Program-made: the position numbers and the translations under genes
In this document: one piece after another, positions 9,310-15,923 of the stretch
Layout: every line of letters starts with the position of its first letter
Numbering within the stretch: position 1 is the first letter of the stretch
Notes under the pieces: model-generated
The model's input: the letters and a program-made list of their open reading frames with translations, nothing else
What the model was told of the DNA's origin: nothing
The model's database searches: none
Origin: Bdellovibrio sp.
GTDB lineage: Bacteria; Bdellovibrionota; Bdellovibrionia; Bdellovibrionales; Bdellovibrionaceae
Direction: 5' to 3'
NCBI GenBank assembly: GCA_025359945.1
Contig: JANYDD010000006.1
Location: 1 to 64,000, forward strand
Length of the DNA: 64,000 nt

Positions 9310-9611
9310 AATGTTGAACCTCCGCTCTCTCAAAAGATATTCGGTCGCTCACAGGTTGGCAAGTTACAATCGACCAAATGATTTGCTGAATTGACTTCGG
9401 AAAAGCCCAACTTTAAAACAAAACAGGGCGGACGACGAAAATGGATTTTTCCGGTGGACTTAATATAATGGCAAAAAAAAATGTTTCTGAAGCATTTCTT
9501 CTTAACTGCAACTTTTCTAATTTAAATGTAAAAGAACTCTCCAGCTTTTGTTTTGAAAAATTTAAACGGGATTGCCAATATGGGTGCGGGGTTAGACTCT
9601 TCAGTATAGGT

Positions 9612-10979
9612 GTGAAAAAACCGTCGGGATTTCTTCGAAGCCTCACTCTCCCCTGGATGCTATGTCTCATCAGCCTTGTGGGCCTGAGCGCTTGTCAGAA
9701 TAAAAAATCAGTCGATCTTGCACCGGCCGAATTGGCGACGACTTCACCTTTGCAAAAGCCTTGTTGTGAAAACAAACCCGATTCCGAACAACCCGCTCCA
9801 CAGCCTGCTCCGGTGGAAGTGCTTAAACATCAGATTCTTTGCGTAAGTCCGGCCTCCACGCTTTTTTTCGGCACCACCGCTTTGCAGTCCCAGGGCTTTA
9901 TGCAAGAGTTTAATTTTTTAGATCCGCGCCCGCTGACATCGGCTCGCCCTAGTGCTTCGCAGTTAGAAATCAATTCACCTTTCTTTTTAAACGCGGACAA
10001 AGACGATCTGTATTTTCTGGCCTCCGAAAAAATGGGTGTACAAGATTCGCCCTGGGCAAAACTTTATTTTGGCAAAATCTCGCTACTGACCCAGCTGACT
10101 GACCTTCAGCCGCTGATTCAGTTTCAATTAAACACTAGTCCACTGCGAGGCCTTTTGAAACGATTGGGCTTCAGGGCAAATAACTATGCTTCGGACCGCT
10201 CAACCCATTCGTTTTTATTCCCAAAGACAGATTCTGTAGGGTCACACTATTCTTTGTATTCCAACCCTAGTCTTTTCAGCGGCAATTACTCGATGGGAAA
10301 ACTGGTGAAAACGCTTTCACAAAATCCAAATAAATTTTTATTTCCTTCGTTAACTAAGGGGAGCGCGGGAATTTCTTTTCACGCGCTGGCCGCTAACGGG
10401 CAAGCAAAAATATTTTACTTTGATTTAAGTAATTCTGAACTTAGGCAGGTTCCCGAATTAGCTGCCGAATCACTTCAACTTGGGTCCCATTTTAGTGCCT
10501 CTGATCGGCATTATTGGTTCGAGTATTTAAACGGCAGTTGGCACTTGCAAGGGCAAAAAATCGTTGATCGCCAACGGCCACAGACTTATTGGAAAACCAA
10601 AGCCACACCACACGGACCTGCTGTAACGGGATTTAAAATGATATCAAAAACAAGCGCCGACCGAGACCTGATTTATTTTTTGACCGGCAATGCAATTCAG
10701 GCGCTTGAAATATCAACAACAACCGGATTGCTTCTTTCAAGTTCGACGTACGCGCCCTCAGCATCTGTGCTACAAGCGATCGGAAAAAGTAATTTCGAAG
10801 AGATCACTTCAGCTGCGGAAAGTTCGGAATTATTAATTGGAATAAGTGAAAGTGGATTTTTAGTTTACGATATCGCGTTAGGAATTTTTTCACCAAAGGC
10901 TTTGGCTCCGCCTTTAAGTTCGGCGTTTCAATGTTCCCAAATCACTGACCTAGTGTCGAATGGGAATTTAAATCCGTGA
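9612..10979 (+). CDS. predicted lipoprotein, unknown, first gene of an envelope operon
   Basis: With a GTG start at 9612 the protein begins with two Lys and a hydrophobic stretch ending in the lipobox LSAC, so a 455-residue lipoprotein is predicted. The frame is open 57 codons further up (to 9441, also ATG at 9468), but that would bury the lipobox at residue ~70. A Pro/Cys-rich linker (KPCCENK, EQPAPQPAPVEV) is followed by repeats of short strands and Ser/Thr/aromatic turns that could be a beta-propeller; this fold guess is weak. No family recognised. Its stop overlaps the next start (GTGA), placing it in one operon with an outer-membrane protein, a TolC-like protein and another lipoprotein. 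Confidence 0.7.
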   Translation: MKKPSGFLRSLTLPWMLCLISLVGLSACQNKKSVDLAPAELATTSPLQKPCCENKPDSEQPAPQPAPVEVLKHQILCVSPASTLFFGTTALQSQGFMQEFNFLDPRPLTSARPSASQLEINSPFFLNADKDDLYFLASEKMGVQDSPWAKLYFGKISLLTQLTDLQPLIQFQLNTSPLRGLLKRLGFRANNYASDRSTHSFLFPKTDSVGSHYSLYSNPSLFSGNYSMGKLVKTLSQNPNKFLFPSLTKGSAGISFHALAANGQAKIFYFDLSNSELRQVPELAAESLQLGSHFSASDRHYWFEYLNGSWHLQGQKIVDRQRPQTYWKTKATPHGPAVTGFKMISKTSADRDLIYFLTGNAIQALEISTTTGLLLSSSTYAPSASVLQAIGKSNFEEITSAAESSELLIGISESGFLVYDIALGIFSPKALAPPLSSAFQCSQITDLVSNGNLNP

Positions 10980-11737
10980 AAACATCTTATTTACTTGTGG
11001 GAATATCAGCGTTGTTGGTGTCTGCTCAATCGGTTGCTGTATCATTAGCTCAGCAGGCACAATCAGAAATTTTGCCGCCGAAAGCCTTAAAAATTTCGGC
11101 TGAAAAGATAAAAAAGCACGCGCAAATCGAAGATTCTTTTTTAAGGCTTTCGCTGGCACAGCCAAAAATAGTTCCTCGAAATTGGTTGGCGCAAATAGCT
11201 ATTTCGACCGAGTGGTATCATCCAGAAGGCACGGTGGCTTCGCCAGAGCTTTCGAGTTTCGAATTAAAATCCTTAAGGGCCAATCCCCTTTTAAAATTCG
11301 AAGGAGCTATGGGTTGGTCTGTGTTTCAAGGCTTTCAAGAAATTTTCATTGGCGCGGGCTATGGTTTTTCTAGTCAAAGCTACGATTTGCGGACTACCAA
11401 TCAAGTTGAAATTCCGGCTTCATTGCTGACCCAAGTGTTTTCGCTAAATTTGGGTAGCACCTGGCCGTATTTGTTCAAGGACATGTGGGGATCTCGATGG
11501 CGACCCGGCCTGTTTGCTGAATGGGGTGACTATCAACTGTATCAAAATTCTGGAAATTCATTTGCTAGGTGGAGTTCTCAGACCCGATTTATTAGTGTCG
11601 GCCCCCGCTTTGAATATCTGCTGTCTAAAACAATTCGATTGGCAGCTGGTTATCACTGGAGAATGAACTCCTCAGTCAGCCCCGATCATCCCAGGCTTAA
11701 TTCTCAATTTGATTTAGGAGTTCTGACATCATGGTAG
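10976..11737 (+). CDS. predicted outer-membrane beta-barrel protein
   Basis: This 253-residue protein has a signal peptide (start GTG; MKTSYLLVGISALLVSAQS) and, from ~70 on, alternating aromatic/polar strands such as FIGAGYGFSSQSYDL, RWRPGLFAEWGDYQLY and IRLAAGYHWRMNSS. The last residues end in an aromatic-rich strand (FDLGVLTSW with terminal Trp), typical of barrel C-terminal signals. It is likely a small barrel of 8-10 strands; the exact family is not recognised. It overlaps both neighbours (GTGA upstream; ATG inside its 3' end), so it is co-translated with the lipoprotein and TolC-family gene. Confidence 0.65.
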   Translation: MKTSYLLVGISALLVSAQSVAVSLAQQAQSEILPPKALKISAEKIKKHAQIEDSFLRLSLAQPKIVPRNWLAQIAISTEWYHPEGTVASPELSSFELKSLRANPLLKFEGAMGWSVFQGFQEIFIGAGYGFSSQSYDLRTTNQVEIPASLLTQVFSLNLGSTWPYLFKDMWGSRWRPGLFAEWGDYQLYQNSGNSFARWSSQTRFISVGPRFEYLLSKTIRLAAGYHWRMNSSVSPDHPRLNSQFDLGVLTSW

Positions 11738-13191
11738 TTTGTCGTTTCATTTGCGTATTTGTTTTGTTTGTGAGCTTGGTCTCGAACGCAGAAAGCCAAA
11801 GCCTTGAGCTGACCCAGCAAAAAGTCGCCGAGATGGTTTTGAAAGAAAGCTTTCAATCCGATGAAATCCAAAAAACTAGTGATCTTTCGATTTATTCTGT
11901 GGCCCTGGCAAAATCGCTTTACGATTGGAATTTTTCGCTAGAAAGCTATTACGAAAATACCCAGTTTCAGAATTTTGCTCGCACGGCTAACCCCAAAGAC
12001 GAGAACTACAAGACTTCTGTGCTAGTGACCAAGCCTTTGATGTCCGGCACATTACTTGGATTGGATATCTCAAGGACGCAAATTCAGTCTACGTTTAGCG
12101 CCACATCGACGGCATCCTTCCCAGCCAATCAAACTTTGGATGTTGCAGGAATTACGATTGAACAAAGTTTATTAAGAAATTTTTTTGGAAGATCATTTCG
12201 TGCCGAGGTCGCGTCTGCAGAAAAATTGGACCAGTCTAAGCGAGTCCTCAAAACCGACTTACTGCAAACACTGGTTTTAGAAACCGTTCAGCTTTTTTGG
12301 AATGCTTTTGTGTCTCAAGAAAACTTTGAAGAGGCCCTGAACTCCAGAGAAAGAACTGAAAAACTAGCCGAGGTCGTACGAAAGAAAAGCAGCCTGGGTT
12401 ACACCAATCCCGGAGAGCTTCCGCAAGTTCTGGCCGAGCTTGAAGTTCGAAACCAAACGGTCAAGTCCGAGTCCGCGAATTATTTAGGTTTACTGTCGCA
12501 ACTGAAAACCAAATTGCGCATTCCCGAAGCGACCGCAGTTAAACTAGTAACTTCGACCGAGATCCCCGAGCTTCCGCAGTTGTCGCCAACTTCGATCGAA
12601 GACTTGCGCTCGATAAAATCTTTAAAAAGTAAATTAGAGTCCTCGGATTTGAGCTTAGTTTCGTCGAAATCAAAAGCCTATCCAGATTTATCTTTGGTTG
12701 GAAAATACTACACCAGTGGGATTGGATCCACGACGACGGATTCGTTCCAGGAATTGTCGTCACAGACGCGTCCCAAATATTATGTCGGCGTGAAACTAGC
12801 TTACCGCTTTGGTTCGGATCTCCAAGGCCAAGAAATCTACAATAAAAAACTTCAGCGCGATATCGACGAGTCCACCCTTTCGCGAACTCGACTAGAAATG
12901 AAAGATCAAATTCAAAACGCTGAACGAAGAATGCAATCGACCTACGCCATAGTTTCAAGCTCAAAAAAACAAGTTGTCCTGCGCGAAGAAGCCGCCCGTG
13001 AAATTCAAAAGGCTTACAACCAAGGGCGAACCGATATTAAAATTTTAATTGATGTTTTAAATTCTTTTTTTGCAGCAGAAGTTCAGTATTCAAAAGCGGT
13101 CGGGGATTATCAAATCGCTTTGAATAATTTGGCCGCTTTAAGAGACGAGTTGATACCAGAAAAGGGGACGCTCTATGAAAACAGCCTTTAA
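11731..13191 (+). CDS. TolC-family outer-membrane efflux protein
   Basis: A 486-residue protein with a signal peptide and the two-repeat OEP layout: long coiled-coil helices (for example LEVRNQTVKSESANYLG near 240 and LEMKDQIQNAERRMQSTYA near 390) and barrel strands (YPDLSLVGKYYTSGIG, YYVGVKLAYRFGS). The C-terminal DVLNSFFAAEVQYSKAVGDY fits the family's final helix. TolC proteins form trimeric tunnels for efflux pumps or type I secretion. No inner-membrane pump or adaptor gene lies next to it; instead there are two lipoproteins and a barrel, so the partner is unknown. It overlaps its neighbours by 7 and 17 bases. Confidence 0.85.
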   Translation: MVVCRFICVFVLFVSLVSNAESQSLELTQQKVAEMVLKESFQSDEIQKTSDLSIYSVALAKSLYDWNFSLESYYENTQFQNFARTANPKDENYKTSVLVTKPLMSGTLLGLDISRTQIQSTFSATSTASFPANQTLDVAGITIEQSLLRNFFGRSFRAEVASAEKLDQSKRVLKTDLLQTLVLETVQLFWNAFVSQENFEEALNSRERTEKLAEVVRKKSSLGYTNPGELPQVLAELEVRNQTVKSESANYLGLLSQLKTKLRIPEATAVKLVTSTEIPELPQLSPTSIEDLRSIKSLKSKLESSDLSLVSSKSKAYPDLSLVGKYYTSGIGSTTTDSFQELSSQTRPKYYVGVKLAYRFGSDLQGQEIYNKKLQRDIDESTLSRTRLEMKDQIQNAERRMQSTYAIVSSSKKQVVLREEAAREIQKAYNQGRTDIKILIDVLNSFFAAEVQYSKAVGDYQIALNNLAALRDELIPEKGTLYENSL

Positions 13192-14110
13192 TTTTTTATT
13201 TTCTTTAATTTTAATTTCTGCGATGGGGTGCGCCCCAAACAAATCGCAACAAGAAATTGGTGCGGTAACATCTAAACAAGAATTTCAGAACAATCAAAAG
13301 GTGAAAGACAATAATTCTTTAGTCCGAGGCACCTACAAAGGTCAGATCAAACCTTTCGCCGGTGGCGCCAATATCCCGGTAGAAATTGGTTTTTTTGAAG
13401 TTTTAGTCACCCTAGGCAGTAATAACGAGGGTGAAAATAAAATCATTCCGGTTTTAAAAGCCCGCTTTCGCCGTTTGGACACCTTTCAGCGCTACCAAAT
13501 TATGGATGCCAAATTTTTTAAAGAGAATGGGACTCTGCTTTTATCCTCACGGAGCACCAGCAGCCCTGGAAATTCAGCAAACCCATCTTCGAACAGCGAA
13601 TTTTTGGGCGAGGGCTATTCCTTTGATGGGGTTCTACAGAATGGAGTTTTCAGCGCGCAAGCATCAGTACGAACCGGGAACTTGGGCGTGCTGGAAGCCC
13701 TGTTGGTTAATGCTGACGTGATCGCAGCTCCGAAGGGCGAGTCCAACGAATTCAATCAACAGCTGAAAGAAAAGATGGAGAAAGTCGCTGGCGAGTACAA
13801 TTACAAAATCGAAATAAATGATCGCATATTCACAGGTACTTTGAATATTGTCATCAGCCTATCAAACAATTTGGAATACTTTTTAGTGGGCAGCCTTAAC
13901 GATGCCAGTTCGACTTTAGTGAAATTTAGTGCGCCCTTTGTGATCACCTACAAGCCCGAGACCTCGCCAGAGGGGCTTTTTTTCTCGAAACTTTCATCCC
14001 AGAATGATCCTTTTTCATTTAATTTCACCGGTCAGGTAGTGGGACCCGAGATTCAAGGAAATCTGATCACCACCAATGGTGTTGGGACTTTTACTGCCCA
14101 TCGAAAATAG
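13175..14110 (+). CDS. predicted lipoprotein, unknown, last gene of envelope operon
   Basis: The 311-residue product starts MKTAFNFLFSLILISAMGC with lipobox SAMGC, so it should be a lipoprotein. The mature part begins with a Gln/Asn-rich linker. It then has two similar halves: RGTYKGQIKPFAGG followed by EIGFFEVLVTLG, and GEYNYKIEINDRIFTG followed by LNIVISLSNN. This suggests a duplicated beta-rich domain. No family recognised. The ATG lies inside the TolC-family gene (17-base overlap), which argues for a shared function in the same envelope complex. No terminator is evident in the 211 bases downstream. Confidence 0.65.
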   Translation: MKTAFNFLFSLILISAMGCAPNKSQQEIGAVTSKQEFQNNQKVKDNNSLVRGTYKGQIKPFAGGANIPVEIGFFEVLVTLGSNNEGENKIIPVLKARFRRLDTFQRYQIMDAKFFKENGTLLLSSRSTSSPGNSANPSSNSEFLGEGYSFDGVLQNGVFSAQASVRTGNLGVLEALLVNADVIAAPKGESNEFNQQLKEKMEKVAGEYNYKIEINDRIFTGTLNIVISLSNNLEYFLVGSLNDASSTLVKFSAPFVITYKPETSPEGLFFSKLSSQNDPFSFNFTGQVVGPEIQGNLITTNGVGTFTAHRK

Positions 14111-14321
14111 TTAGGAATTAATTGCTTGTCCGTCTAACTTGCGAACGTCTGGCGTGGAATATGAGGTCTTGGGATCGCCTGCAGTTAAAATCTGTCGAAC
14201 GCGACCAGCCGACGAAACTCACCTATATTTTTTAAAGATCAAAAATTGACCTTAACTTTATTTTAATCTAAGGTTCCAGGCTTTGGGTCGACTCAAAGCT
14301 GAATTCTGAGGGGCATTAGAA

Positions 14322-15923
14322 TTGGTCAAATTTCATTTTAAATTTTATCGAATAATTTGTGTTTTATTTCCGGTCGCCGGGGCCTTAATGGGTGCGAACG
14401 TGTTTGCTGTTCAGTGTGCGAAACCGAGTAAACTTCAAAAAACCGGCAAGCAAAGGCAAGTGCTCGCCAGCACCGATGGTGATGACCGTCCCTGGCCCAA
14501 CCAAGAAATTTGGAAACTTGGGCTAACACCACTTACTTCGAATTCTGATATTTTGGTGGTGCCTGGGGCTTATTCTTCAGGGTCACTGATTTTTGAAACG
14601 GCAAGAGCGCACCAAGTGCTAAATAACGGCCGACGACTGGTCACAGTTCACGTTGTTAATGAAAGTGAAATTGACTCTTCGTTGGCAAAACCATCGAACG
14701 GGTCGATCGATCTGGAAATTCCTTGGTCTGCATATGCAGGGAATACGGAGCGTCTGGTTGAAATCCTAAATGGATTGGGTGGAAAAATCTTAGCCGTTCT
14801 TCCCGGATACGAAGACAGCGTTATTTTATCTCACCAGCTTCAAATTTCTCCAGAATTGCGCCATGAGATTCCCCGCACTGCAATAGACCCTGGACCCTTA
14901 CAATCAAAAAGTAAACTCAGCCAGGCCGTGAAAAATAGCTCACACTGGATTGATGGCACGTTTAGTTCGTTTGAGGACTTTAAAATATGGTTGAACAAAA
15001 TTTCCATTTTTGAAAATCATCAACAATTAATGCTGAAGCCTGACTTAGGCGCGGCAAGTTTTGGCAATAAAGTAGTTTCTAACCTGGCCGAAGCAAAAGA
15101 ACAGTTCGAAAAAATATTGGGTCTAAAACTTACAAACGGCCAAACCAGCACCCACGTGCACGTTTCAGAATATATTACTGACCCAGAGTTTGCAGTGAAC
15201 TTTTCAAAATATACAGATCCAAAAAACCTCCAGAAGACAATTTTCAAGGTTTCTTCCTTAGTTTACATGAGAAAAGTTTTAGTCGATGGCCACCCGCTCT
15301 ATGACCAAGAATTTTTACTAGATCCTTATGACCCAGAAATTAAAACTAAATTGGTTCGATTGATAGGTTCAGGCGCCGAAAACATCGATCTAAAAAAGCT
15401 GCTTCAGCATACGGAAAATATGGCTTCTGAAATTGGTTTTTTGAATGGGCCCGCACATCCTGAAATATTTTGGAGTTTTAATAACCAAGGTCAGACTTTC
15501 GACGTGGCGGGGCGTTTGATGGGGGGTCAACGACCGCTTTGGGTAGGCCGAGCTTCCCACTTTAGTGACGTCTATTACGCGATTGCTTCAATGATTAATC
15601 CAAAACTTTTTTCTAAACTTCCAAAATTCAATCGTCCCCATTCGCACGCCGGAGTCGTTTTTCTGCATACGAAACAAGGTGGGGTGATGTCAGGTTCTGC
15701 AGTTGCCGAACTAAAAAACTTAAAAAGTCTTCGCGGCATTAAATCTGAATTTGTTGTGAAGGTAGCACCACCAGGAGCTGTCCTGCCTAAGACTAAAGAT
15801 ATTCACGAATTTCCTGGGGTTATCGAACTTACGCTTCCTTTTAATAAAGGAAGCTTTGAAGATCTGATTGCTGATATGGAAACAATCCGAACCAAAATCA
15901 AATGGGTTATCGAAAAACCCTAG
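14322..15923 (+). CDS. ATP-grasp ligase-like protein with predicted signal peptide
   Basis: This 533-residue protein resembles ATP-grasp amino-acid or dipeptide ligases. A Rossmann-like front (ILVVPGAYSSGSLIFETARA) is followed by MLKPDLGAASFGNKVVSN (ATP-binding loop), HVSEYITDPEFAVNF, and the metal-binding stretch GPAHPEIFWSF with FDVAGRLMGG. The tail APPGAVLPKTKDI and SFEDLIADMETIR are also typical of that group. Unusually, residues 1-35 look like a signal peptide (Lys/Arg, then IICVLFPVAGALMGANVFA). The TTG start is supported by a GAGGGG ribosome-binding site. Export would place an ATP-dependent enzyme outside the cytosol. The substrate cannot be told; the front could instead be a membrane anchor. 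Confidence 0.75.
   Translation: MVKFHFKFYRIICVLFPVAGALMGANVFAVQCAKPSKLQKTGKQRQVLASTDGDDRPWPNQEIWKLGLTPLTSNSDILVVPGAYSSGSLIFETARAHQVLNNGRRLVTVHVVNESEIDSSLAKPSNGSIDLEIPWSAYAGNTERLVEILNGLGGKILAVLPGYEDSVILSHQLQISPELRHEIPRTAIDPGPLQSKSKLSQAVKNSSHWIDGTFSSFEDFKIWLNKISIFENHQQLMLKPDLGAASFGNKVVSNLAEAKEQFEKILGLKLTNGQTSTHVHVSEYITDPEFAVNFSKYTDPKNLQKTIFKVSSLVYMRKVLVDGHPLYDQEFLLDPYDPEIKTKLVRLIGSGAENIDLKKLLQHTENMASEIGFLNGPAHPEIFWSFNNQGQTFDVAGRLMGGQRPLWVGRASHFSDVYYAIASMINPKLFSKLPKFNRPHSHAGVVFLHTKQGGVMSGSAVAELKNLKSLRGIKSEFVVKVAPPGAVLPKTKDIHEFPGVIELTLPFNKGSFEDLIADMETIRTKIKWVIEKP

Follow-up and report, generated by a model that had tools for sequence, protein, structure and literature searches.

Free ATP is normally absent or scarce outside the inner membrane, and ATP-grasp amide ligases are regarded as cytoplasmic because they require ATP. 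The closest described systems are the L-amino-acid ligases BL00235 (3vot), YwfE/BacD (3wnz, 3vmm), RizA (4wd3) and DdaF, all of which we take to be cytosolic enzymes without a signal peptide. The metazoan C7orf58/CPED1 was predicted to be a secreted ATP-grasp amino-acid ligase (PMC2824669). It belongs to a TTL branch fused to a PC-esterase and occurs in animals only, so it is a precedent in concept, an analogy and not a relative. The Pseudomonas protein RloC is an ATP-grasp protein linked to exported partners (PMC12239564); it resembles the family described here in this tie to export, but unlike it RloC itself was predicted to be cytoplasmic. No description of a bacterial exported ATP-grasp ligase was found in the literature searched.

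The window (the whole stretch of 64,000 nucleotides of Bdellovibrio sp. DNA that was analyzed) encodes a protein with the same ATP-grasp block order and catalytic residues as BL00235, YwfE/BacD, RizA and DdaF at an identity of 12-17%, and with the same modelled whole-domain fold as the solved L-amino-acid ligases (Z 24.6-27.8). The following features were assigned to the locus:

14308..14313, + strand: ribosome-binding site GAGGGG, 8 nt 5' of the TTG (sequence)
14322..15923, + strand: gene of the predicted exported ATP-grasp ligase, 533 aa plus stop, TTG start (ORF, family profile, fold)
14322..14408, + strand: predicted Sec signal peptide, residues 1-29, site NVFA↓VQC (sequence, coding potential, family comparison)
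14409..14549, + strand: mature N-terminal linker, residues 30-76, mostly predicted disordered, carrying C32 (pLDDT <50 at residues 30-58)
14550..15920, + strand: ATP-grasp amide-ligase fold, residues 77-533, with K196, K239, E289, K318, H379, E381, D394 and R398 (profiles, alignment, model, fold search)

L-amino-acid ligases are usually cytosolic and begin at the first strand, although this does not define them. The window protein instead carries a 29-residue predicted signal and a 47-residue linker. Unlike BL00235, YwfE, RizA and DdaF, the exported members of its family have a cysteine-bearing linker, and in the clade of the window protein the second metal site holds Asp where they have Glu.

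Ligase identity and active site

An earlier note on this DNA had recognized an amino-acid or dipeptide ATP-grasp ligase, and the blocks on which it relied (MLKPDLGAASFGNK, EIFWSF and FDVAGRLMGG) were all found in the window protein. In Pfam only sub-threshold ATP-grasp matches were obtained. In NCBIfam the best family match was PRK07206, a group of hypothetical ATP-grasp proteins (4.5e-21), and dapdiamide A synthase DdaF was also matched (1e-8), all scores being below the curated cut-offs. The cut-off of PRK07206 (NF005543) is 302 bits and the window protein scored 75 (its paralogue L004 182, 1.4e-53); that of DdaF (NF041595) is 840 bits and the window protein scored 34.4. The PRK07206 model starts at the first strand without a signal, unlike the exported members. 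With a 32-sequence family profile, the best PDB matches were L-amino-acid ligases (30vh 4e-106, BL00235 4e-37, RizA 2e-30).

The AlphaFold2 model of residues 30-533 had a mean pLDDT of 89.8, with residues 30-58 disordered. The top fold matches of this model (Foldseek, VIA-align) were BL00235 (Z 27.8) and then YwfE/BacD (Z 27.5), and residues 45-504, covering the N-terminal, central and C-terminal ATP-grasp domains, aligned to 3vot, 3wnz and 3vmm with Z 27-28. The profile matches and the fold, including the AlphaFold/Foldseek comparison that the earlier note had suggested, thus upheld the ligase identity, with L-amino-acid ligases ranked on top and the active-site residues kept. As judged from sequence and model, the window protein belongs with the ATP-grasp L-amino-acid ligases of the BL00235/YwfE/RizA/DdaF type, and ATP-dependent dipeptide formation from L-amino acids is a candidate activity.

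The two ATP lysines K196 and K239 were invariant in 32/32 family sequences, and E289, H379, E381 and R398 were nearly invariant in the same alignment. H379, E381 and R398 were kept in all exported members covering those positions. Glu was present at position 289 in all exported members except L055, which also has His at position 318, where L047 has Arg. Of the residues typical of such ligases, the window protein has both ATP lysines (K196, K239), the H-x-E (H379, E381), the acidic metal residue (D394) and the phosphate Arg (R398). Since almost all exported members retain the active-site residues, they look like working enzymes.

The predicted exported subfamily

Direct searches with the window protein gave nothing, and a profile was therefore needed to find relatives. 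The profile, built from six exported members, was run against 369 genomes of the phylum and picked up relatives in 28 of them. No close orthologue of the window protein was detected among 60 relatives, genome contigs, phages and viral contigs. From inspection of the N-termini, a signal was predicted for 19 members in nine genomes (G000, G008, G140, G273, G275, G276, G277, G278 and G317). Two of these members, L024 and L049, are interrupted by contig ends; several genomes carried 2-4 exported copies.

The genome containing the window (G000, 2.74 Mb, 96% complete) encodes five family members. Four of them, all with a signal-like N-terminus, formed one clade (support 99/95). The N-termini of L002, L003 and L004 could not be aligned with that of the window copy, yet they were signal-like with an A-x-A-like site. 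The predicted cleavage sites of these four are:

Window protein: NVFA↓VQC
L002: DVLA↓ISSC
L003: PALA↓NSC
L004: DLQA↓GRC

The fifth member (L005) is divergent and has no N-terminal extension. About a dozen homologues in the phylum were likewise signal-less and began at the first strand (e.g. MKRPIVIVDPRSSG). Six plasmid homologues from other phyla were retrieved, and none of the four annotated ones (0/4) had an N-terminal extension; the two without annotation were left out.

Export clusters on the family tree. The export label required 3 changes compared with 8.9 for shuffled labels, and 0 of 500 shuffles were as low, on a tree in which several rows have long branches. The question of whether homologues share the signal, raised in the earlier note, was answered by 18 further members with signal-like N-termini, and neither orthologues starting downstream of residue 40 nor the lack of a predicted signal, the outcomes it had set against export, was found when looked for. 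The family comparison therefore suggests an exported sub-family of L-amino-acid ligases rather than a one-off. By its sequences, this sub-family is predicted to be a known kind of enzyme in an unexpected place.

The exported members show a plain cysteine pattern: in 16 of 19, a Cys lies 3-8 residues past the predicted cleavage site, mostly outside any lipobox. Cysteine makes up 0.22% of the mature exported proteins; relative to that background, the computed p-value was 3e-24, which overstates the case because the members share ancestry and their cleavage sites were chosen by visual inspection. In the window protein this Cys is at +3 relative to the predicted SPase I site, and as C32 it is the sole mature cysteine, while exactly two were present in 12 of 19 exported members. 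A conserved disulphide was not claimed, since the second Cys is spread over several columns and is missing from the window copy. A lipoprotein (SPase II) reading of the window copy was also rejected; it has no lipobox ([LVI][ASTVI][GAS]C) but AVQC instead.

Predicted export of the window copy and alternative readings

The N-terminus of the window protein (MVKFHFKFYR-IICVLFPVAGALMG-ANVFA↓VQC) displays the basic n-region, hydrophobic core and A-x-A-like site of a Sec/SPase I signal. A home-made signal test was positive in 10 of 54 window genes and in 5 of 80 shadow ORFs. It was positive for most of the exported set and negative for L004 (on a charge rule) and L022, and one signal-less homologue (L025) scored positive; because it missed the first two and let the last through, the test is a rough guide. 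The signal peptide proposed earlier thus gained agreement from the coding potential, from this test and from the signal-like N-termini of the three paralogues in the same genome. The proposed TTG start behind the GAGGGG site also stood, being the earliest possible start in the frame on ORF inspection.

TTG is a weak start codon, and translation from the ATG at residue 23 or the GTG at residue 47 would give a protein without the signal. The ATG at residue 23, the next in frame, is not preceded by a Shine-Dalgarno sequence, and the paralogues likewise have TTG or ATG starts ahead of a signal. With a codon model from the other window genes, codons 1-29 scored +0.23 bits/codon in frame and codons 77-533 scored +0.21, compared with -0.30 for the intergenic stretch upstream. 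The signal therefore belongs to the coding sequence, and a later start is very improbable. Another reading takes the hydrophobic stretch for a weak signal or for an anchor that stays uncleaved, so that the protein would be a normal dipeptide ligase in the cytoplasm at the inner membrane face, where ATP requires no special source and to which the homologues without an extension would also point. A basic mature N-terminus may hinder Sec export. That of the window protein has a charge of +4 in its first 15 residues, unlike the lack of positive excess typical of exported proteins, and the hydrophobic stretch is flanked by +4 on each side. Because the n-region is no more basic than the mature N-terminus, an inward-facing anchor remains a rival for this copy, and an uncleaved or poorly exported form is possible. 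The other family members, judged from their N-termini, argue against it: their first 15 mature residues range from -4 to +3, several being neutral or acidic (L051 -4, L052 -2), A-x-A-like sites occur in nearly all 19 members despite the unalignable N-termini, and the short hydrophobic cores and few cysteines fit export. We consider the inward-facing arrangement unlikely.

An exported protein could also have retained the ATP-grasp fold as a binding scaffold that leaves outside ATP unused. The scarcity of ATP outside would suit this, as would two substitutions in the window clade, where Ala or Gly replaces the usual Asn of E-x-N and Asp occupies the second metal position. However, the lysines, H-x-E and Arg are retained among very divergent members (mean column identity across the family 23%), and BL00235, described as an L-amino acid ligase, likewise lacks the Asn, with Gly at the same place in the profile alignment. 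Loss of activity seems slightly less likely than an inward-facing anchor. On balance, we lean towards an ATP-grasp carboxylate-amine ligase that is exported by Sec and catalytically competent, and that represents a secreted offshoot of the L-amino-acid (dipeptide) ligases.

Proposed activity and genomic context

For such an exported ligase, the signal peptide would carry the protein over the inner membrane and would be cut after A29, and the ATP-grasp domain would fold outside behind a flexible one-cysteine linker. Judging from conservation and fold, Mg-ATP would be bound via K196, K239, E289, H379, E381, D394 and R398. As in the family, an acyl-phosphate would probably form on a carboxylate and be attacked by an amine, giving an amide bond. 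The substrate might be a free amino acid or peptide, or else an envelope polymer that is modified at its carboxyl groups.

The location is odd because ATP is normally absent outside the cytoplasm, and an ATP-containing host or prey compartment may be the explanation. KARI and a convincing HisG were absent from the 96% complete genome G000, the controls being positive in 14 and 13 of 14, respectively. Their lack fits an amino-acid auxotroph feeding on other cells, and a predatory lifestyle is inferred. The compartment most likely to supply ATP to a Bdellovibrio-like bacterium with such an auxotrophy would be a prey or host cell that has been opened. ATP transport by B. bacteriovorus has been claimed (Ruby and McCabe, 1986, as listed among the references of PMC4834554). 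A search for the TLC ATP/ADP carrier, run without a positive control, gave zero matches. Tentatively, Bdellovibrio-like bacteria might secrete working ATP-dependent peptide or amide ligases that use prey or host ATP on molecules outside their own cytoplasm, as an extracytoplasmic bacterial ATP-grasp class with a shared post-signal cysteine for attachment or redox control.

The existence of such a family, exported, present in several copies and intact at its active sites, would imply that some bacteria form bonds with ATP outside the cytoplasm, and in predators the use of prey ATP in place by secreted enzymes would become testable. The label 'ATP-grasp domain-containing protein' hides the site of action of such genes and calls for caution in annotation.

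Upstream of the window ligase, beyond a 211-nt gap with no promoter above chance, are genes of a large, exported-looking protein and of outer-membrane-like, TolC-type efflux (PF02321) and lipoprotein-like proteins; neighbours without a Pfam match were named by reading their sequences. Downstream follows a thioredoxin-like gene on the opposite strand. No conserved gene neighbourhood was found around the exported members, whose neighbours share nothing and gave no substrate clue. A defence-system reading was set aside, with zero PADLOC matches.

The upstream genes include a four-gene run (window 9441-14110) of exported or lipoprotein-like proteins with the TolC homologue, three of the four without a Pfam match. 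Elsewhere, the paralogue L002 is convergent with a gene for a PBP4-type D-Ala-D-Ala carboxypeptidase (Peptidase_S13; L059 7971-9269). A CHU_C type IX secretion domain protein (L064 7511-9133) directly follows the exported copy L051, and a tandem pair of exported ATP-grasp genes (L065 8416-11599) adjoins a GT87 glycosyltransferase in a region rich in small exported proteins. The signal-less homologues L014 (1432-2682) and L015 (1468-2712) adjoin MatE-like transporters, as read from sequence, and resemble small dipeptide-product clusters.
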